Source: Archaeoglobus sp. JdFR-27 (GTDB lineage: Archaea; Halobacteriota; Archaeoglobi; Archaeoglobales; Archaeoglobaceae). Taken from it: a stretch of DNA of 37,241 nucleotides. Below, in pieces: positions 14,861 through 34,940 of this stretch (within the stretch, counting starts at the first letter, position 1; every line of letters starts with the position of its first letter). The position numbers and the translations under genes are program-made. The DNA lies in the NCBI GenBank assembly GCA_002011235.1, contig MTMO01000042.1, positions 1 to 37,241 on the forward strand, written 5' to 3'. Under the pieces are notes generated by a model, which was not told where the DNA came from, did no database searches, and saw only the letters and a list, made by a program, of their open reading frames with translations.

Positions 14861-15178
14861 ATGCTCGAACTTAATATGCCCGACGCCCGTGAGTTCTTTC
14901 AAAAGAATAATGGAGGTAGGAATGGTGAGAAAATCCTAAAAGTAGTTTCTAGGAGTGGTGTTAGTACAATTTTATTTACTTTGAACAGAAATCCTATGAA
15001 ATTCTCCCAACTAATGTTCAAAACAAGACTAAATCCTGGAATTTTGGATAGGCATTTAAAGTCTCTTATGAAACTCGAGATAATAGAAAAAAGTGGAGAT
15101 GCATATACACTCACTCAAACAGGCAGAAGACTCATTGATGTTTTAAATGAATTATTTAAGTTATTTCAGAGTTTTTAA
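14861..15178 (+). CDS. Small winged-helix DNA-binding protein (HxlR/PadR-like)
   Basis: This 105-aa protein is almost entirely one winged helix: RSGVSTILFTLNRNPMKFSQLMFKTRLNPGILDRHLKSLMKLEIIEKSGDAYTLTQTGRRLIDVLNELF. The wording resembles HxlR-type regulators that lack other domains. The ribosome site AGGAGG is strong. Its last 18 bases overlap the end of cheR in convergent orientation, so each gene's transcript would be antisense to the other's 3' end. It may be a regulator of the motility island next to it, but this is only positional. Confidence 0.75.
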   Translation: MLELNMPDAREFFQKNNGGRNGEKILKVVSRSGVSTILFTLNRNPMKFSQLMFKTRLNPGILDRHLKSLMKLEIIEKSGDAYTLTQTGRRLIDVLNELFKLFQSF

Positions 15179-16018
15179 TTTAGATTTATGTAAATTATAA
15201 TTGAAATGAGATGTTAAACTTTTTTTATAGATCTTTTCCCGTAAATCAACTGGTAGAAACATGTTCTTAGATTTTACTGGTAAAGTTTCAGATTTTCCAA
15301 TAATTAGGTATCCCTCATCAACCAGGGCATTGTGAAAGTCCTTAACTACCTTTCTTTTCTGTTTTTCATTGAAGTAAATCATAACGTTTCTACAAAAAAT
15401 TGCATCAAAATATTTTGAGACTGGACCTTCAGACGTTAAATCATGTCTTTTAAATCTTACATACTTCTTCAATGGTTTCTTAATCTTGTACAAATTTCCC
15501 TCTTTTACAAAGTACTTATTTATAATTTTTGAACTTAGGTTTTTTAATTGCTCAGGTTTATACACGCCATTGTTCGCTGATTTGAGACAATTTTCATCTA
15601 TGTCTGTTCCATAAATAGACATAGACCATCCATTTCCGAGCGTTTCAAGAACACATATAAGTATTGAATAAACCTCCTCACCGCCAGCACATCCAGCACT
15701 CCAAAATCTCAGTAAATTGCTTTTCGCCCTCCTTTTTTTTTCTGCGATTTCTGGCAATATAAATTTCATAAAGAACTCAAACGGTGTTTTATCTCTCATA
15801 AACTCAGTAACGTTTATTGTAAGTGTACTAATAAGTTTTTCAAGTTCTTCTTTGTCTCTATTAAGTATTTTAAGATAGTTTAGGTAATCATCTATTCCTA
15901 GAATTTTCATTCTAAGTTCTATTCTCCTCCTAAGATAATTGTCTCTATACTGCTTAAGATCTATTCCAGTTTTTACAGAAATTTTTCTAATGAAATACTG
16001 AAACCGGTCTATATCCAT
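15161..16018 (-). CDS. cheR: CheR, chemoreceptor methyltransferase
   Basis: The 285-aa enzyme methylates glutamates of chemoreceptors with SAM during adaptation. It shows the N-terminal helical CheR domain (RFQYFIRKISVKTGIDLKQYR...RRIELRM), the LTINVTEFMRD motif, the SAM loop RFWSAGCAGGEEVYSI at about residues 105-120, YGTDIDENCL, and the C-terminal FDAIFCRNVMIYF and LIIGKSETL strands. It is the last gene of the chemotaxis operon; its ATG overlaps the end of cheD by 10 bases. The receptor here lacks a C-terminal CheR-docking pentapeptide. About 20 extra basic residues extend the C-terminus. Confidence 0.95.
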   Translation of the reverse strand: MDIDRFQYFIRKISVKTGIDLKQYRDNYLRRRIELRMKILGIDDYLNYLKILNRDKEELEKLISTLTINVTEFMRDKTPFEFFMKFILPEIAEKKRRAKSNLLRFWSAGCAGGEEVYSILICVLETLGNGWSMSIYGTDIDENCLKSANNGVYKPEQLKNLSSKIINKYFVKEGNLYKIKKPLKKYVRFKRHDLTSEGPVSKYFDAIFCRNVMIYFNEKQKRKVVKDFHNALVDEGYLIIGKSETLPVKSKNMFLPVDLREKIYKKSLTSHFNYNLHKSKLKTLK

Positions 16019-16479
16019 TTTCTCTCTCCGTTACTATATTTCACCAAAACTGTACCGTTTTCCGTGTTGAAGAGGATTGTTCTGCCCCACCACCCTCCTA
16101 CATCCTCGGCAATTATTTTTATCTCCTCCTCTTTTAACTTATTCTTTACCGATTCTACATTTTTCTCACCAATTTTAAGAACATCTAATGTTGTTTGCTT
16201 AAAGATCTGTGCTCCCCCAGCAATTTTGGCAATTAACCTTTTTTTCCATATGCCTCTATCTTCAAACTCACGAAGCATGACCTCTATTGCATCTTCGGCG
16301 TATTTGGGTATATGCTGACTATTATCAGAACTTCCTGGGAGGAGAATATGTGCTAACCCTCCTATCCTTTTGTGAGGTTCGTAAAGAATAACTCCTACAC
16401 ACGAGCCTAACCCAATGGTCTTAAGTATCACGCCTCCATCAATCCTATATTCGCCAATTCCTACAAGAATTTCCTTCAT
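16009..16479 (-). CDS. cheD: CheD, receptor glutamine deamidase
   Basis: The 156-aa protein carries the CheD motifs TIGLGSCVGVILY (nucleophile Cys at about residue 28) and KRIGGLAHILLPGS (catalytic His at about 45). CheD deamidates receptor glutamines and, with CheC, forms a complex that enhances CheY-P dephosphorylation. It directly follows cheC, with an ATG that overlaps the cheC stop, fitting the usual cheC-cheD pairing. Length is normal. Confidence 0.95.
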   Translation of the reverse strand: MKEILVGIGEYRIDGGVILKTIGLGSCVGVILYEPHKRIGGLAHILLPGSSDNSQHIPKYAEDAIEVMLREFEDRGIWKKRLIAKIAGGAQIFKQTTLDVLKIGEKNVESVKNKLKEEEIKIIAEDVGGWWGRTILFNTENGTVLVKYSNGERKWI

Positions 16480-17084
16480 AATCCCCTCAGTAGATCCATA
16501 AGCTTTTCTAATAGTTTTGTATTTGGAATTAGCAATAAATCGAGGACAATGTCATCGTCACCACGTAATTCTGTTCTGAAAAGTATTACATATTCACTTT
16601 TTTCTGCGAATTCAGCCATCACCGCATCTATCACTGCTGTAACAAAATCTATTGCAAAACTTGGTGGAGAGGGGAGCATGGCAACTCCAAAAAGCTCGGA
16701 TAGTGCGTTGCAAAAAGAGCATGATAAGATATTCCCGGTTTCCGTAATAGCAGAAACGCCAATTTCGTCCATAGTTTCACTTCCACATAAGTGTGTCACG
16801 AGCTTTCTGGTTGATTCTGGCGAGAGTATCACATAAATAAACCCAGATATGGATTTGTCTAATTCTTGAATTGCAGTTAAAACACCAGCAATGATTTCAT
16901 TATTAAATACTTTACTTAATTCAGGGATTCTTAATATTTCCACTTTGGGCACACTCATCTCAATAGTTTTACCAAGCATTTTTGAGAGAGATGTTGCTGC
17001 GTGCCCAGCTCCGATATTTCCCACTTCTCTCAGAGTATCTAGCTCTATATCTGATAATTCAGCTAGTTTAAACAATTTTTTCAC
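16476..17084 (-). CDS. cheC: CheC, CheY-P phosphatase
   Basis: The 202-aa protein contains both CheC active-site helices with the pattern D/S-x3-E-x2-N: DTLREVGNIGAGHAATSLSKM near the N-terminus and SAITETGNILSCSFCNALSEL near residue 110. Both keep the Glu and Asn needed to hydrolyse CheY-P, so a two-site CheC is expected. It lies between cheA and cheD with 4-17 base overlaps. A receptor-linked adaptation role together with CheD is typical of archaea and Gram-positive bacteria. Confidence 0.95.
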   Translation of the reverse strand: MKKLFKLAELSDIELDTLREVGNIGAGHAATSLSKMLGKTIEMSVPKVEILRIPELSKVFNNEIIAGVLTAIQELDKSISGFIYVILSPESTRKLVTHLCGSETMDEIGVSAITETGNILSCSFCNALSELFGVAMLPSPPSFAIDFVTAVIDAVMAEFAEKSEYVILFRTELRGDDDIVLDLLLIPNTKLLEKLMDLLRGL

Positions 17085-18954
17085 CCCCTACTAGGCTTGA
17101 GACATCGAGAATTGGTATTACTCTACCATCTCCAAGAATTGTAACACCGCTGAAACCTTTGATGCCTGTCAGGAAGCCATTTAGTGGTTTAACAACTATC
17201 TCCTGCTGACTTGTTATGACATCCACTATTAGACCGTACTTTTCTCCCTCTTTTTCAATGATTATTCCAATTTCCTTTTCTGGTACACCATTTCTAACAT
17301 TAAAGAGTTCTCTGAGCCTAAAAGATGGGACTAATTTGCTTCTAACATACAAAAATTGGGTACCATGAATAGACTTTAAGTTCGCATCATTTACATAAAG
17401 AGCTTCTACAACACTTGATAAGGGTATAGCGTAATCTTCATCGCCAACTTTAACAATTAGCGACTTTATTATTGCGACGGTTGGAGGCAGAGAAATTCTT
17501 ATCTTCATACCCTTGTCTTTCTCTGAGATAACTTTCACGTTTCCGCCCAACCTTTCAACTTTTGTTTTGACAACATCCATACCTACTCCTCTTCCAGAAA
17601 TCTCAGTAGGTTTATCCTTGGTAGAGAATCCGGGAACAAAAATCAGCATTTTAATCTCTTCATCGCTCATCCTCTCCGCTTCACTTGGTATAATTAAACC
17701 CCTTTCTATAGCTGTTTTCTTTATCTTTTCGGTATCAAGCCCTTTTCCATCATCTTCGATCTCTATTATTATGTTGTTCTTGTCTCTTCTTGCAGATAAG
17801 ATAATTCTCCCAACTTCACTTTTCCCGGCGGCAACTCTTTCTTCAGGCATCTCAATTCCGTGATCTACAGCGTTCCTTATGATGTGAACAAGTGGGTCAT
17901 TAATCTCATCAAGAACAGTCCTGTCCAATTCTGTGTCTAATCCTCCCATTACAAAATCTATCTTTTTACCTGATTTTCTTGCTAAGTCTCTTACCATTCT
18001 TGGAAACTTGTTGAATACTCTTTCAATTTTTATCATTCTTATACGCATAATTTCGTCTTGTAAATTGGTAATAGACTTGTCCATTATATTTACAGCTTCC
18101 CTTAATTCGGAGATATTATAATGTTGAGATATCTGTAGAAGCCTACCCTTGCTTATTACAAGTTCGCCAACAAGGTTCATAATCGTATCAAGTTGCTCTA
18201 TATTCACTCGAATACTTTCAAGAGTTTTTTTCTCCAATTTTTCGACGTTAATTGGTTTTGTTACACCAGTATCGTGTTTTGTTTTAATCTCAATTACCTC
18301 GTATTTTTCAACTTCTCCAATTGTTTTCATTATTCTTTCAATCTCACCTTTTTTACCTTTTATAAAAATGCTAAATCTACCGTCAAATTTGTCACTATCG
18401 ATAAAATCCTCATCAGGCTCAATTTTAACAATTCTTGCAACATCATTTAGAGCTTCAAGGATTAATGCAACTCTTACACTTTTCATAAGACAGTCATCAG
18501 CAAGGGTTACATCTAGCTTTAGATTGTAATCTAAGTCTGATTCCTGAATGAATTGTGTTTTCAAATTTTCTGAACTTCTTTTATTTATTCCCTCAAGAGT
18601 TGCAAGAAGGTTTGAGATATCCATCTCATCGCTGTCCTCGCTCTCTATCTTGGATATAATCTTTTCAATTGTATCAACAGTTGATAGCATAACATCTATA
18701 ATTTCTTCATTTACTTCCATCGATTCTTCCCTTATTCTCCCCAAGATACTTTCAAGATTGTGACACAACTTCTCTAAATTTTTGTAACCCATGAAACCTG
18801 CCATTCCCTTTATTGTGTGAGCAACTCTGAATATTTCATTCAGCGATTCCTTATCACCTCTCTCAACATTTATAAAAGATTGATTTAGCACATCAATGTA
18901 TTCCTTCACTTCCTGGAGAAATTCTCGTTTATAATCCTCCATATTAATTTCCAC
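17068..18954 (-). CDS. cheA: CheA, chemotaxis histidine kinase
   Basis: The 628-aa kinase has an HPt (P1) domain with the phosphorylated His46 in RVAHTIKGMAGFMG, a P2-like region around residues 150-225, the P3 dimer helices (LDTIMNLVGELVISKGRL), the HATPase with N box HIIRNAVDHGIEMPEER, G1 EDDGKGLD, F box FVPGFSTKD and G2 SGRGVGMDVVK, then a CheW-like P5 domain from about residue 490. I chose GTG at 18954, seven bases after GGAGGTG inside the end of cheB; an ATG four codons later lacks that spacing. It phosphorylates CheY and CheB in response to receptors. Confidence 0.97.
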   Translation of the reverse strand: MEINMEDYKREFLQEVKEYIDVLNQSFINVERGDKESLNEIFRVAHTIKGMAGFMGYKNLEKLCHNLESILGRIREESMEVNEEIIDVMLSTVDTIEKIISKIESEDSDEMDISNLLATLEGINKRSSENLKTQFIQESDLDYNLKLDVTLADDCLMKSVRVALILEALNDVARIVKIEPDEDFIDSDKFDGRFSIFIKGKKGEIERIMKTIGEVEKYEVIEIKTKHDTGVTKPINVEKLEKKTLESIRVNIEQLDTIMNLVGELVISKGRLLQISQHYNISELREAVNIMDKSITNLQDEIMRIRMIKIERVFNKFPRMVRDLARKSGKKIDFVMGGLDTELDRTVLDEINDPLVHIIRNAVDHGIEMPEERVAAGKSEVGRIILSARRDKNNIIIEIEDDGKGLDTEKIKKTAIERGLIIPSEAERMSDEEIKMLIFVPGFSTKDKPTEISGRGVGMDVVKTKVERLGGNVKVISEKDKGMKIRISLPPTVAIIKSLIVKVGDEDYAIPLSSVVEALYVNDANLKSIHGTQFLYVRSKLVPSFRLRELFNVRNGVPEKEIGIIIEKEGEKYGLIVDVITSQQEIVVKPLNGFLTGIKGFSGVTILGDGRVIPILDVSSLVGGEKIV

Positions 18955-19996
18955 TACATTTCACCTCCACAAAATGGACAATTTCTTCTGCAATCTCATA
19001 AACGGGTTTTACTGACGTTACAGCTCCAATTTCAATAGCAGCTTTGGGCATGCCAAAGACAACACATGTATCTTCACTTGATGCGATTGTTGCTCCACCA
19101 GCGTCTTTTATTTTTCTCATTCCAAATGCTCCATCGTTACCCATTCCAGTTAATATAACGCCTATAACATTTCCTCCATAAATAGAGACGACGGATTCGG
19201 CAGTCACGTCCACTGAAGGTTTTACTGCATTAACAGGTTTACTATCAATTACTTTTATTCTGGTAACACCTAAAGCTCTTCTTAACTTCATATGATAGCT
19301 GCCAGGTGCGATATAAGCTACCCCTTTCTTTACTTTTTCATTATTTTCAGCTTCTTTAACTTCTATTTCAGACTGCAAATTCAACCTCTCAGCCAAGTAT
19401 GTGGTAAAGCTTGGAGGCATATGTTGTACAACAAAAACAGCTGCAGGTATATCAGATGGCAATCTTGGAATTATTTGCTCTAAAGCAGAAGGTCCACCGG
19501 TAGAAGAGCCTATTAACACACAGAGATCTCTATCCTTGCATTTCCATCTTCCTCTTACAACACTACCCTTAAATTTTCTGAGATTTTGAAATCTTATGAG
19601 ATTTGGATTAGTATTAGTTGCAGCTTCTATCTTCGAAATTATCTCATTTTCAATTGTCGTTAAATCGTAGGTGAGTGAGCTTGGCTTAGCTATAAAGTCT
19701 ACAGCCCCTAATTTAAGAGCCTCAAATGTCTCTCTTGCCCCCTCTTTTGTTAAGGCACTTAACATTATGACTGGTGTTGGTTTTTTCTCCATTATGAGTT
19801 TTAGAGCTGTTAGACCGTCCATCACAGGCATATTGATGTCCAAGGTTACTATGTCAGGTTTAAGCTTCAAAGTTTTCTCTAATGCCTCTTTTCCATTTTT
19901 GGCAGTGTCAACCACTTCAATACCCGCCTTTTTTAATACGTTGGAGATGGCTATTCTCATAAAAGCTGAATCATCAACAACAAGGACGCGAGTCAT
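18944..19996 (-). CDS. cheB: CheB, receptor methylesterase with receiver domain
   Basis: The 350-aa protein joins an N-terminal response-regulator receiver (VLVVDDSAFMR, phospho-Asp in IVTLDINMPVMDG at about residue 55, Lys in FIAKPSS) to a C-terminal methylesterase. The catalytic triad is visible: Ser in LIGSSTGGPSAL, His in VVQHMPPSFT, Asp in TGMGNDGAFG. It removes methyl groups from receptors when phosphorylated. Its ATG overlaps the TGA of cheY (ATGA), so translation is coupled. A roughly 40-residue linker joins the domains. Confidence 0.97.
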   Translation of the reverse strand: MTRVLVVDDSAFMRIAISNVLKKAGIEVVDTAKNGKEALEKTLKLKPDIVTLDINMPVMDGLTALKLIMEKKPTPVIMLSALTKEGARETFEALKLGAVDFIAKPSSLTYDLTTIENEIISKIEAATNTNPNLIRFQNLRKFKGSVVRGRWKCKDRDLCVLIGSSTGGPSALEQIIPRLPSDIPAAVFVVQHMPPSFTTYLAERLNLQSEIEVKEAENNEKVKKGVAYIAPGSYHMKLRRALGVTRIKVIDSKPVNAVKPSVDVTAESVVSIYGGNVIGVILTGMGNDGAFGMRKIKDAGGATIASSEDTCVVFGMPKAAIEIGAVTSVKPVYEIAEEIVHFVEVKCSGN

Positions 19997-20355
19997 ACGT
20001 TCAGAACTTTTTTTACTTCTTCAATCACCTTAATTGCTTGAAATGGCTTTACTATGTATCCCTTCACCCCCAACTTTATGGCTGTCTTCACCATCTGCTC
20101 TTGGCCTACTGCGGTACACATAATTACCTTTGCTTTTGGATCCATTGTTTTAATTCGTCTTAAAGCCTCAATTCCGTTCATTTCAGGCATAACTATATCC
20201 ATCGTTACTAGATCAGGTTTGAGCCGTTCATAAAGTTCGATAGCTTGTTTTCCGTTTTCAGCTTCACCAACAATATCAAATCCTCCAGAAAAAAGAATAT
20301 TCCTCAATAGTTTCCTCATAAATGCTGTGTCGTCGACAATCAGAATTCTTGCCAT
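19993..20355 (-). CDS. cheY: CheY response regulator
   Basis: The 120-aa single-domain receiver has ILIVDDTAFMRKLL, the phospho-Asp in LVTMDIVMPEMNG, Thr in MCTAVGQ and Lys in YIVKPF. In archaea phosphorylated CheY binds CheF and through it the archaellum motor to change rotation. The ATG follows GAGGAGA. It is between cheW and cheB in the operon. Confidence 0.96.
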   Translation of the reverse strand: MARILIVDDTAFMRKLLRNILFSGGFDIVGEAENGKQAIELYERLKPDLVTMDIVMPEMNGIEALRRIKTMDPKAKVIMCTAVGQEQMVKTAIKLGVKGYIVKPFQAIKVIEEVKKVLNV

Positions 20356-20379: not shown

Positions 20380-20826
20380 TTAGCTTGTGTCAGCCATAAC
20401 TTTGTTTAAGTCTATTAGTATGAGCATACCGTCAGGTAATTTTCCCACCCCCTTTAGGAATTTAGCTTCACTTCTTGTGGTTGTTATATTGGGTAAAGGT
20501 TCTATATCATCTGAAGAGAGGTATTTAACTTCATTAACTGTATCAACCATCATTCCAATTATAGCATTGTTATGCTCGACAACGATTATTCTCGTATTTG
20601 CGTCTATTTCCTTTGCATTCATTCCAAATCTCTTTCTCAGATTTATTATGGTGGCTATCTGCCCCCTAAGATTTATCACACCTTCAACGAACTCTGGAGC
20701 ATTTGGAATCCTCGTGATTCGAGTGGGTTTTATTATCTCCCTTACCTGTAATATGTCTACTCCATATTTTTCTTCTCCCAAATTGAAAACGATTACTTGG
20801 ACAGTCTGAGCATTCAGAGGCGTCAA
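20380..20826 (-). CDS. cheW: CheW coupling protein
   Basis: The 148-aa protein has the CheW/SH3-like pattern [52 protein letters not shown] and the late [22 protein letters not shown]. It bridges receptor tips and CheA. The start is a TTG overlapping the receptor stop (TTGA) and preceded by GGAGGTGA inside the receptor gene; no ATG or GTG with a comparable site exists, so TTG is very likely used with translational coupling. Confidence 0.95.
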
Positions 20827-23555
20827 ATCACCTCCTTTAAAATCTTAAAATTGTTCGTCATTACCTCTAAAGTCTTTCTTGCGACCTTGTTCATGTTTTC
20901 AACAGCTATAGTTACTTGTTGAATTGCTGCAGTCTGCTCCTCTATTGCCGCTGAAGTTTCTTCGCTTGATGCAGCATTTTCTTCTGCAGTTGAGGCTACT
21001 TCTTCAACATTCTTTGCTAACTGTTCGAGTTTTGTTATGCCCTCATTAGCATCTTTTGCAACCACATCTAGCATTTCGCCGATTCGATTAACCATCTCTG
21101 CAATCTCTCCAGCTTTGTTCAATGCGTCTTCAACGACTTTACTACCTTCTACAGACTCTTCTTTGGCTTTCATTATAGCATCTATAACCTTCTTGGTTTC
21201 CTCTTGCACATTCTTAACTATTTCATTTATCTCCTCGGTGCTCTTTCTAGATTCTTCTGCAAGCTTTCTAACCTCATCTGCCACAACTGCAAACCCCCTT
21301 CCATGTTCTCCAGCTCTTGCAGCTTCAATAGCCGCATTTAATGCTAGTAAGTTCGTCTGATCTGCAATCGATTTGATTCTTTCTGTGACTTTTCCTATGT
21401 TTCTAACAGCCTTATTTAGCTCTTCAACTATTTCGGCTGTCCTCTCAACATCCCTTATAATATTGCTTAGAGATTCTAAAGCCTTTACTCCACTATCTTT
21501 CGCACCTTTAGCATCTTCTACTACTTTCTTAGTATACTCATCTGATTCTTGAGCTGAATTTGTGAGGTTTTGAAATATCTCCTTAACAGCTTTTAGATTC
21601 ACGGCAGAAGTATTTGCAAGTTGAGAAAGGTTTTCTGCCCCCGTTGCTATTTGCTGTGATGCTGAAGATATTTGTTGCATTCCTATATTTATCTGATTAA
21701 TCGCCTGATTTGCTTCCTTAGCCTGCTCAGTTGTTTTCTTCATATCTTCTACAGTGTTCTCAACTATCTCACTTAATCTTTCAACAAACTCGTTAAAGAT
21801 TTCAAAAGTTCTTCCAAATTCATCGTCTTTCTCCTTTTTCAATCTTACACTTAAATTACCTTTTCCAAGTTCTTTGATAGCATTTCCGAGCTTTTCGAGA
21901 CAGAGATTAGAATAGTCTAAGAGTTCTTGAATTTCTCTCTCCTTCTCTTTAAGATCTGAAATATCAGTAAATACACCTAAAGACCCAATAAGTCCACCAT
22001 TCTCATCATAAATTGGGACACAAGAAACTAAACCAAATAGCTCTCCTCCATTTGCCATTCTTATAAGAATCTCTTTGTTTAGCACAGGTTTTCTTGTCTC
22101 TATAACTCGTTCTGAAAGAGTCTCCTTACCCTCAGGAACATAGAATAGTGTTGCAGGAGATTTTCCTATCACCTCCTCTGAACTTTTGAAGCCTGCTAGT
22201 TTTGCAAGCTCCTCATTAATGAACCTCACCTTTCCATCTGCTCCCGTAAAAAGGAAGTACACTGGAGATGGCATATTTTTAGCCATCGCCTCTATCAGTC
22301 TGAAAGCTTGTTCAACCTCTCTCTCTTTCTCCTTAACTTTTGAAATATTAACGAAGAAATCCAAGGCTCCTATAAATTCTCCATTTACATATACAGGTAC
22401 ACATGAAAGCAAGATGGGGATTTCTTCTCCATCCTTGTTCCTTGTGATGGTTTCAATTGCTAGTAAAGGTTTCCTCGTCTCAACAACTTTCTCAGCAATT
22501 GTTTTTCCTCCTGCTGCTTGAGTTGAGAATAACTCTGATGGTTTTTTTCCTATTATCTCTTCAGCTCCACCAAAACCAGCAAGCTTAGCAAAGTTATCGT
22601 TTGCATATCTTATTGCCCCCTCAGGATCCACGAACAATACGTATCCGGGGTCAGGTAAATTCTTAAAAAGCTCTTTAATTTGCTTCTCCTTCTTTTTCAC
22701 TTCTGTTATGTCGGTAAAAACACCCAAAGAACCTATCAGCTCGTTATTGCTGTATATTGGAACACAAGAAACTAGTGCGTCCATTTCTCTTCCATTGCTC
22801 ATTTCAATGTGCATCTTTTTGTTTATCGCTAACTCTTCTGTTTCGAGAACTTTTTCTATGAGAGTTTTCTTACCTTTGGGCAATTTAAAAAACTCTGAGA
22901 TTTTTCTGCCTACGAGCTCATTTGATGTACTGAAACCAGCAAGTTTGGCAAACTCATCGTTTACGAACTTTATCCCTCCATCTTTATCTATAAAGGTGAA
23001 ATACACTGGAGAAGGCATGTTTTTAGTTATGTTATCCAATAGGTCGAAGGTTTTTATAGCTTTTCTCTCTCTCTCTTTCATTTCAGTTATATCAACGAAA
23101 ATGTCAAAAGCTCCCAGAAAATCTTCATTTAAATAAATTGGAACGCAGGAAATCAGCAAATCAACTGACCTACCGTCACCTCTTGTAGTAGCTTCTAGGC
23201 CAATTACATGTTCTTTTGTCTCTGCAACTCTTTCAACAATCGTCTTTCCATCACTGCCATTGGTTACCCACCTTTCCGAGGGTTTTAGACCTATCAATTC
23301 TTCTACTTCATTACAACCAAAGAATTTTGCGAAATTATCATTTGCATAAATTATTCTTCCCTCACTATCTACCATCAAAACACAGAAGGGTGGAGGTATG
23401 CTTTTGAACAATACATTTATAAATTCCTTAGTTCTCTTTAGTTCATTCTCTCTTTCACTTAATAGAGTTCTCAGTTTTTTAATCTCTCTTTCAAGTTCGA
23501 CTATCTTTTTATCTCTATTTTTTGGCATATTTTCAACTTTGATATCTGCCGCCAT
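20823..23555 (-). CDS. Soluble methyl-accepting chemoreceptor with four PAS domains
   Basis: The 910-aa protein has no membrane segment. After a short coiled coil it carries four PAS domains of 122-127 residues (about 45-165, 168-290, 293-412, 418-540), each ending with a conserved SCVP(I/V)Y at about residues 137, 263, 385 and 512 and linked by charged helices (EMKERERK type). A HAMP-like stretch follows (about 550-605), then the signalling hairpin with tip [43 protein letters not shown]1 resembles PAS3 and PAS2 resembles PAS4, so a two-PAS unit was duplicated. It should sense an intracellular ligand or redox state and control CheA. It heads the operon. Confidence 0.95.
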
Positions 23556-23576
23556 GTTGTAAAATTAATCGGTAAG

Positions 23577-23586
23577 TATATATTAA
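23577..23586 (-). promoter_or_regulatory. TATA box of the chemotaxis operon
   Basis: TTAATATATA (minus strand) is centred about 26 bases before the receptor ATG at 23555, with no ribosome site between, so the chemotaxis operon mRNA probably starts leaderless. Confidence 0.55.
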
Positions 23587-23645
23587 TTTCCCATAAAAAT
23601 GAAATTATAGTGTTTTGATTGCAAAGCTGAAGTTTCAAAAAAGTA

Positions 23646-24260
23646 CTACACGATATCTTTGTGGTTTATAATTGTGAAGGAGTCAGACAGTACAGCGACT
23701 CCACCTTTCATACTGAATTTCAAATTTGCTACATAAGTATAATAGGACACATAAGAATCCTCGCTCTTACTTACCTCTATAACCGCGTCATGGAAGGGAG
23801 TTAACCCTTCTACAAGCTCAGAACCAAGAAGTGAAGTTATCATAATTCCCTCTTTGTGCTCAATTAACATTTCGATAGCACAGTTTGTATCGTAGCCATA
23901 TATATTGAAGAAGTTTATACCAAAGGATATTATAACTCTCTGAGAGAGTGGTAGTGCACCCATCACTCTTGATAGATCATTGGATAGGTAAACTTTTTCG
24001 ATTTCATTTAAATATTTGCAACTTTTCTTTGTTGCAATAGTTATAGCATCTCCACTTTCTGGGAAACCATACTTTTTTCCTAGGTGGTTTATCCTTTCTA
24101 CTGCTGCATCTGTCCAAAGTAGCCAAAAGGGCTCTCCGTAATTTTCAGCAATCCATTTTGACACTATTAAGAAGCTATATAAATCCGGATACGTTATTAG
24201 AATTCTATCTCCTTCGCCCGAGATATTGAATACACTTTTCAGAACTTCCACTTCTAACAC
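23646..24260 (-). CDS. Orphan 204-aa protein beside the chemoreceptor, RecA-fold-like
   Basis: I do not recognise a family. The 204-aa protein is soluble and alternates strands and helices: RILITYPDLYSFLIVSKWIAENYG, PFWLLWTDAAVERINHLGKKYGF, RVIISFGINFFN, GIMITSLLGSELVEGLTPFHDAVIEV, then a beta-rich end. The order resembles a KaiC/ArlH-type RecA fold, but no Walker A (GxxxxGK[ST]) is visible, so it would not bind ATP in the usual way. It starts with GTG and a TATA-like box about 20-25 bases upstream suggests a leaderless transcript. It lies 90 bases upstream of the receptor gene, same strand, and could be a motility accessory. The fold similarity is my inference. Confidence 0.65.
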   Translation of the reverse strand: MLEVEVLKSVFNISGEGDRILITYPDLYSFLIVSKWIAENYGEPFWLLWTDAAVERINHLGKKYGFPESGDAITIATKKSCKYLNEIEKVYLSNDLSRVMGALPLSQRVIISFGINFFNIYGYDTNCAIEMLIEHKEGIMITSLLGSELVEGLTPFHDAVIEVSKSEDSYVSYYTYVANLKFSMKGGVAVLSDSFTIINHKDIV

Positions 24261-34022: not shown

Positions 34023-34940
34023 ATGGAAGTGGGGAATGCAAAGAATGTAAAGGAAATAAAGGTAGAAGATATGGTTGGGAAGTTCATATCACCTCTTATC
34101 TCAGGTAGTAAAAGATTTGTAGATGCTAAGTGGATTCTAGCAAGGATAATCCTCTCGAATAAGAATATTTGGATGGTTGGGAAAAACATTAAGAAGAGAA
34201 TTCCACTTCCAAGTATAATTGACTTGGGTGGTAGGCTGGATTTAAACCAAGAAATAGCTAAAACCCCCTTCTACCTACTTATAAGACACACAGATAATGA
34301 GAATCACATTAGTTTAATTACAGGAAGTAGAAAAGATCTCGAGAGATTTAAAAATGCGATCATTCATGTGATTTTAAATGGAAAAATTGTGTATGTGAAG
34401 TATCCAGTTAAGAAGGGGGGGGTTGTACAAACAAATGTTAATTGGGAAAAAGCTCAAATTGTTATAAAGGATAATAAGCTAAGACTAGTTACAGAGTCTG
34501 GAAAGCTGATAAAAATTGAGCCAGATAAAATACAACTTTTGAGAAGAGAAGATAGGGAATTTAATGGAGAAATGAAAAAGGTAATTGACATTCAGTTTAA
34601 TGAGTTTGATAGAGAAAGTAACATGGAGTACACAGTCGAGTGTTATATTTATGGAAGAGGAGAAATTCTTAATATTATTCATCAGTTTATATATAGTGGC
34701 TTTGATAAAGTTTCTGCCGATATACAGCTTTCTGATGTAGAAAAACAGATAATAATGTCTTTGTATACTGGCGTCTCTCCTTTCGAGATACCAAGTTTTC
34801 TTGGACTTGATGTTGAGAAAGTTGAGGAGATTTATGACAGACTTATAAAGCTCGGAGTTTTAAAGGAGGTTAGGAAAAGAAAGGAAGTCACCCTCACAAT
34901 GAGGGGTAAAAATCTTGCTAGTGAGGCTTTATCTGAGTGA
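34023..34940 (+). CDS. cheF: CheF, archaeal chemotaxis adaptor (DUF439)
   Basis: The 305-aa protein fits DUF439/CheF: N-terminal VEDMVGKFISPL, a beta-rich middle (WEKAQIVIKDNKLRLVTESGKLIKIEPDKIQLLRRED) and a C-terminal winged-helix-like end (EKQIIMSLYTGVSPFEIPSFLGLDVEKVEEIYDRLIKLGVLKEV). CheF binds phosphorylated CheY and the archaellum motor complex (ArlCDE), switching rotation. It is last in the arlH-I-J-HEAT-cheF operon, starting 22 bases after the HEAT gene with AAAGGGA before ATG. Its 3' end overlaps a convergent membrane-protein gene by 12 bases. Confidence 0.9.
   Translation: MEVGNAKNVKEIKVEDMVGKFISPLISGSKRFVDAKWILARIILSNKNIWMVGKNIKKRIPLPSIIDLGGRLDLNQEIAKTPFYLLIRHTDNENHISLITGSRKDLERFKNAIIHVILNGKIVYVKYPVKKGGVVQTNVNWEKAQIVIKDNKLRLVTESGKLIKIEPDKIQLLRREDREFNGEMKKVIDIQFNEFDRESNMEYTVECYIYGRGEILNIIHQFIYSGFDKVSADIQLSDVEKQIIMSLYTGVSPFEIPSFLGLDVEKVEEIYDRLIKLGVLKEVRKRKEVTLTMRGKNLASEALSE

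Follow-up and report, generated by a model that had tools for sequence, protein, structure and literature searches.

AerC of Azospirillum, a soluble redox chemoreceptor, has PAS sensors in common with the receptor described here. It is a FAD-PAS chemoreceptor, and whether a PAS domain binds FAD has been reported to depend primarily on a Trp on F-alpha (PMC10468136). Archaeal PAS domains are nearly confined to cytoplasmic receptors (PMC9680633), and two such receptors, the MCPs of the che cluster of the archaeal genome G001, likewise consist of a PAS array (two or three domains), a degenerate HAMP-like linker and an MCP domain. The PAS fold is also shared with the haem domains of FixL and DosP, which have a proximal His and, in place of an MCP domain, a kinase or phosphodiesterase as output, and with the LOV domain of YtvA, which carries its LOV Cys on E-alpha. 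In the 37,241-nucleotide contig of Archaeoglobus sp. JdFR-27 analyzed here (the window), we found a receptor of this cytoplasmic type with four PAS domains and a Cys, probably a pocket residue judging from alignment, that all four share. A lineage-enriched pocket Cys provides a concrete handle on what soluble archaeal chemoreceptors sense, one that bears on whether such pockets bind an established cofactor or some other ligand, or make use of thiol chemistry.

A soluble four-PAS receptor and its che operon

The receptor ORF occupies positions 20823-23555 of the minus strand, begins with ATG and encodes 910 residues; an earlier sequence-only reading of this DNA had placed it at exactly these positions, naming no strand. 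From its Pfam matches (four PAS, HAMP and MCPsignal), the product is a soluble methyl-accepting chemotaxis protein. PAS1 (residues 41-164; 23064-23435), PAS2 (residues 165-291; 22683-23063), PAS3 (residues 292-413; 22317-22682) and PAS4 (residues 414-540; 21936-22316), all on the minus strand, were delimited with Pfam and a four-copy alignment, and PAS3 and PAS4 were also modelled, the former with AlphaFold2. They are followed on the same strand by a weak, degenerate HAMP (PF00672, E=1e-6; residues 553-595; 21771-21899) and by the MCP signalling domain, the best stretch of which spans residues 703-855 (20991-21449) and matches PF00015 with E=2.2e-42 and 145 bits, against a cut-off of 34.6. No membrane segment was found in the receptor, the top 19-residue Kyte-Doolittle mean being 1.46, which together with the Pfam domains bears out the earlier description of a soluble receptor with no membrane helix. 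With its four PAS domains and no transmembrane segment, the protein is a member of a known group, the cytoplasmic PAS chemoreceptors.

The receptor gene heads a complete che operon with the order MCP-cheW-cheY-cheB-cheA-cheC-cheD-cheR, located beside an archaellum cluster. On the basis of Pfam matches, CheW (20380-20826), CheY (19993-20355), CheB (18944-19996), CheA (17068-18954), CheC (16476-17084), CheD (16009-16479) and CheR (15161-16018) are all encoded on the minus strand, and inspection of the first junction showed that cheW uses a TTG start with a 4-base overlap with the MCP stop. The same che gene order is found in G001 and in G010, a genome of the same genus, the receptor of which is apparently split by a contig break. 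CheF-arch, which in archaea connects CheY with the archaellum motor, is encoded on the plus strand (34023-34940, Pfam). The window also encodes another CheC-like protein and another CheY, besides archaellum genes, namely archaellins, FlaC/D/E, a KaiC-like FlaH, FlaI (T2SSE) and FlaJ (T2SSF), the names FlaH, FlaI and FlaJ being read from Pfam matches and gene order. Upstream of the receptor, on the same strand, a 204-residue protein (23646-24260, minus) gave no Pfam or NCBIfam match. Close to the receptor ATG, on its upstream side, there is a TATA-like stretch (AAATTAATATATA; 23555-23610, minus) but no clear ribosome site, and a leaderless operon start is possible.

The thermosome encoded on the window contig is 97% identical to those of G012 and G011, and for this reason the contig can be assigned to the genus; completeness of the genome was estimated at 99.7%. 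A second MCP of this genome (G000, contig C11, L062), which is partial and contains some N, was considered as a paralogue and rejected as a likely bin contaminant, in that it has 99.58% identity over 3839 bases with G003, a genome of another genus, and differs in G+C. The MCP in the window is therefore the only receptor creditable to the genome, and very likely the only chemoreceptor of this archaeon. If the organism steers by a single intracellular receptor, as seems to be the case, the PAS pockets of this protein would set its whole taxis behaviour. It is also worth reporting that, in spite of the 97% thermosome identity of G012 and G011, CheA was found in no more than two of the six genomes that represent the genus of the window, to which G009-G013 belong; gain and loss of the chemotaxis cluster thus seem to be rapid within it.

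The four PAS copies and their shared cysteine

Cys137, Cys264, Cys385 and Cys512 occupy one column of the four-copy alignment, in the context SCVP(I/V)Y, in agreement with what the sequence-only reading had noticed in each PAS domain. The four domains it recognized are also confirmed; it gave their spacing as 122-127 residues, and the Cys-to-Cys distances are 127, 121 and 127. Alignment and codon comparison place the four codons, all on the minus strand, at 23145-23147 (TGC), 22764-22766 (TGT), 22401-22403 (TGT) and 22020-22022 (TGT). Invariance within the protein is by itself weak evidence, because 28 columns, that of the Cys included, are invariant among the four copies. Where the copies have identical residues, however, their codons differ at 42-64% of sites, so that their likeness does not stem from gene conversion or from duplication in the very recent past, and we reject chance conservation among recent copies. 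That a Cys has been kept in four old copies with differing codons could reflect a role stronger than packing.

With regard to how the copies arose, the highest identities are those of PAS1 with PAS3 (51.7%) and of PAS2 with PAS4 (52.4%), the remaining pairs ranging between 33 and 48%. A tree built from 110 PAS domains puts PAS2 and PAS4 in a supported four-member clade (100/93), the other two members being a domain of G020 and a domain of G010, and the data do not reject PAS2 and PAS4 as an exclusive pair (p 0.42); PAS1 and PAS3 appear as sisters with weak backing (42/26). The earlier suggestion that a pair had been duplicated agrees, then, with the two best pairs (~52%) and with the PAS2/PAS4 clade, whereas the sisterhood of PAS1 and PAS3 lacks support. 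Duplication of a two-PAS module, as judged from these comparisons, is likely, but old.

Structural models place the SCVP Cys on strand H-beta: Cys385 is within this strand in an AlphaFold2 model of PAS3 alone (pLDDT 91), and so is Cys512 in a model of the tandem PAS3-PAS4 (pLDDT 83). In an alignment with FixL and YtvA, the sequences of which were checked against PDB chains, the Cys column corresponds to BjFixL Ile238, SmFixL Val232 and YtvA Ile108. SmFixL Leu230/Val232 and BjFixL Leu236/Ile238 line the distal haem pocket (PMC10765370), while in YtvA a mutational scan found the largest positional effect at Leu106 and Ile108, which make hydrophobic contacts with FMN (PMC4041573). Because the column matches these known pocket positions, the thiol can be taken by alignment to face the pocket, and we consider that the side chain of the SCVP Cys probably does so. 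A location far from the pocket, which would have spoken against the initial idea, is not what was found, with the direction of the side chain being read from the alignment. The PAS domain of CPS_1291 of Colwellia psychrerythraea (3LYX), which is among the best fold matches (TM 0.70/0.75), also has a Cys at this position, in the context MCVPIY, although CPS_1291 is a bacterial GGDEF-domain protein and the protein studied here an archaeal MCP.

The solved structures closest in fold are DosP, MmoS, FixL, NifL, YtvA (LOV), VqmA and the Colwellia PAS 3LYX, and the best matches of the PAS3 model are flavin, haem and small-molecule PAS domains. The prominence of DosP, MmoS, FixL, NifL and LOV among these matches would be in line with PAS domains that hold a canonical cofactor, whether b-type haem, FAD or FMN, as FixL, DosP, Aer, AerC and LOV proteins do. 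The residues at the relevant positions, however, make this hardly credible for the receptor. The column of the proximal haem His (FixL His200, on F-alpha) has Gly or Lys in all four PAS domains, and the only His residues of the PAS region, 116 and 249, are not conserved across the copies. The F-alpha Trp by which AerC-type PAS domains bind FAD is missing from three of the four, the sole Trp of the receptor being residue 96, in PAS1. Likewise, a LOV adduct Cys on E-alpha is absent as a shared feature, as the only Cys common to the four copies is that on H-beta. A cluster of Cys of the Fe-S type was not seen within the PAS domains either: PAS2, PAS3 and PAS4 have one Cys each, and the three of PAS1 (58, 81 and 137) are far apart, Cys58 and Cys81 being limited to this domain. 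No second Cys or His common to the four copies could complete a metal site. A disulfide or a metal cluster between the Cys residues of different PAS domains was also considered and found unlikely, given one shared Cys per domain that faces the pocket by alignment.

The cysteine column in relatives and its possible role

The column was then followed in 180 PAS domains of relatives, where the most frequent residues are Ala (43), Cys (39), Val (20) and Gly (19). Its weighted Cys content of 20% is the highest in the PAS alignment, the mean being about 1% and the next column reaching 10%. Cys is found at this position in 37 of 106 PAS domains of archaeal chemoreceptors versus 2 of 67 in other PAS proteins (Fisher 1.7e-7, a value that ignores shared ancestry and comes from a search seeded with Cys-bearing domains). 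A sample of 95 PAS domains, taken from loci that were retrieved through the general PAS_9 family and not via the receptor, has no Cys there. Cys occurs beyond the Archaeoglobi, in f7 genomes and in one f5 genome, other f5 relatives having Ser or Ala instead, and at least six changes between Cys and other residues are needed on the PAS tree. Read protein by protein, the column is CCCC in the window receptor and CVVAC, ACACG, CAAC, CVA, CIA, CAA, CC, FIA or GA, among others, elsewhere; in the two MCPs of G001 it is C,I,A and C,C, so that only some of their PAS domains have an SCVP-type Cys. To the question whether the Cys is conserved beyond close relatives, the answer is therefore mixed: it is enriched in archaeal chemoreceptors and reaches f5 and f7, but in the receptor's homologue from the same genus the column reads C,A,A, other relatives have Val, Ile, Gly, Phe or Ser, and some receptors (FIA, GA) are free of Cys at the column. 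A scan of genome contigs with the whole protein found no relatives, and one with profile A1 gave 3 archaeal and 10 distant matches. A search of literature titles and abstracts for a conserved PAS Cys in chemoreceptors returned nothing specific.

Because the Cys is replaced in close relatives, an essential ligand of a metal, haem or covalent cofactor is unlikely. The sequence-only reading, which had proposed that the Cys is functional, was right in that its occurrence is non-random and its position that of a pocket residue; an obligatory metal, haem or covalent-cofactor role does not fit the replacements, and an essential redox, metal or covalent site at the SCVP Cys is not supported. In sequence terms, the pattern is that of a pocket residue which recurs and is favoured, not that of an indispensable ligand, and an optional role for the thiol is still compatible with it.

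Taken as a whole, we find reasonably probable the explanation of a cytoplasmic receptor that senses through four PAS domains and has a pocket Cys tuning the fit of the ligand. In chemoreceptors of this family the signal passes from PAS through HAMP and MCP domain to CheA and CheY-P. Here, the four tandem PAS domains would take their cue from inside the cell (its energy, redox or metabolite state), this cue would alter the occupancy or state of their pockets, and the signal would travel through coiled-coil linkers and the degenerate HAMP to the MCP hairpin, which would control CheA activity, with CheY-P acting on the archaellum through CheF. The Cys on H-beta would add a small, slightly polar contact to the content of the pocket, and tuning of ligand or cofactor fit is, in our analysis, its most likely contribution. 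For this receptor we infer the bound ligand, the sensed cue, the signal flow and the direction of the Cys side chain, and the pockets may even be empty.

It could be argued, alternatively, that the Cys is a mere small residue packed in the core, interchangeable with Ala, Gly or Val and with no role toward a ligand, in PAS domains that act as dimerizing or relay modules. Besides the 37 Cys, the column of the 106 receptor domains is mostly small or aliphatic (Ala 32, Val 14, Gly 12 and Ile 6, among others), the homologue from the same genus has Ala in place of Cys, and the Cys-free receptors are what such a residue would allow. Nonetheless, Cys reaches about 20 times the alignment mean here, an excess that no other column matches, is nearly missing from other PAS proteins, and stands where FixL and YtvA contact their cofactors, so that packing alone appears rather unlikely to us.

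If instead the four Cys formed a thiol sensor that reacts reversibly with an intracellular oxidant, sulfane sulfur, NO or a metal, four copies would widen the response. A pocket-facing position by alignment, retention in four copies in spite of the 42-64% codon divergence, and recurrence in receptors from f5 and f7, further archaeal families within the phylum, would all suit such chemistry. Near relatives, however, have Ala, Val, Ile, Gly, Phe or Ser instead, no second shared Cys or His is available for a metal site, Cys58 and Cys81 being confined to PAS1, and the SCVP Cys probably faces the pocket, whereas reactive thiols are usually more exposed. We hold this reading to be improbable, and quite improbable the bolder idea that the H-beta pocket Cys defines an undescribed class of PAS sensor in soluble archaeal chemoreceptors, in which the pocket thiol itself senses, uniformly over four pockets, sulfane sulfur or redox-active metabolites, for example. 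We continue to favor the tuning of ligand fit.

A few further features of the sequences are worth recording. Cys-bearing PAS domains share PSE and GGKT-like residues before F-alpha (T in 77%), found in PAS1 of the window receptor at residues 92-105, which might provide the mouth of the pocket with an anion site. In related receptors, some PAS domains carry clustered Cys before F-alpha (CYxxFxTxxCRTxxCAC, CQVC or CKVC), as in L069 (312-433 and 569-686), L005 (581-699), L019, L068 and L011 (187-304); the window protein does not have them, and they make likelier ligands of a metal or an Fe-S cluster than the SCVP Cys does. Finally, comparison of related receptors drew attention to Cys552 (codon at 21900-21902, minus) in the linker between PAS4 and HAMP, which, in the context Y-T/S-x-x-C-L, is kept in 19 of the 24 related archaeal receptors compared, within Archaeoglobi and as far away as relatives at the level of the phylum, and is better conserved than the PAS Cys.
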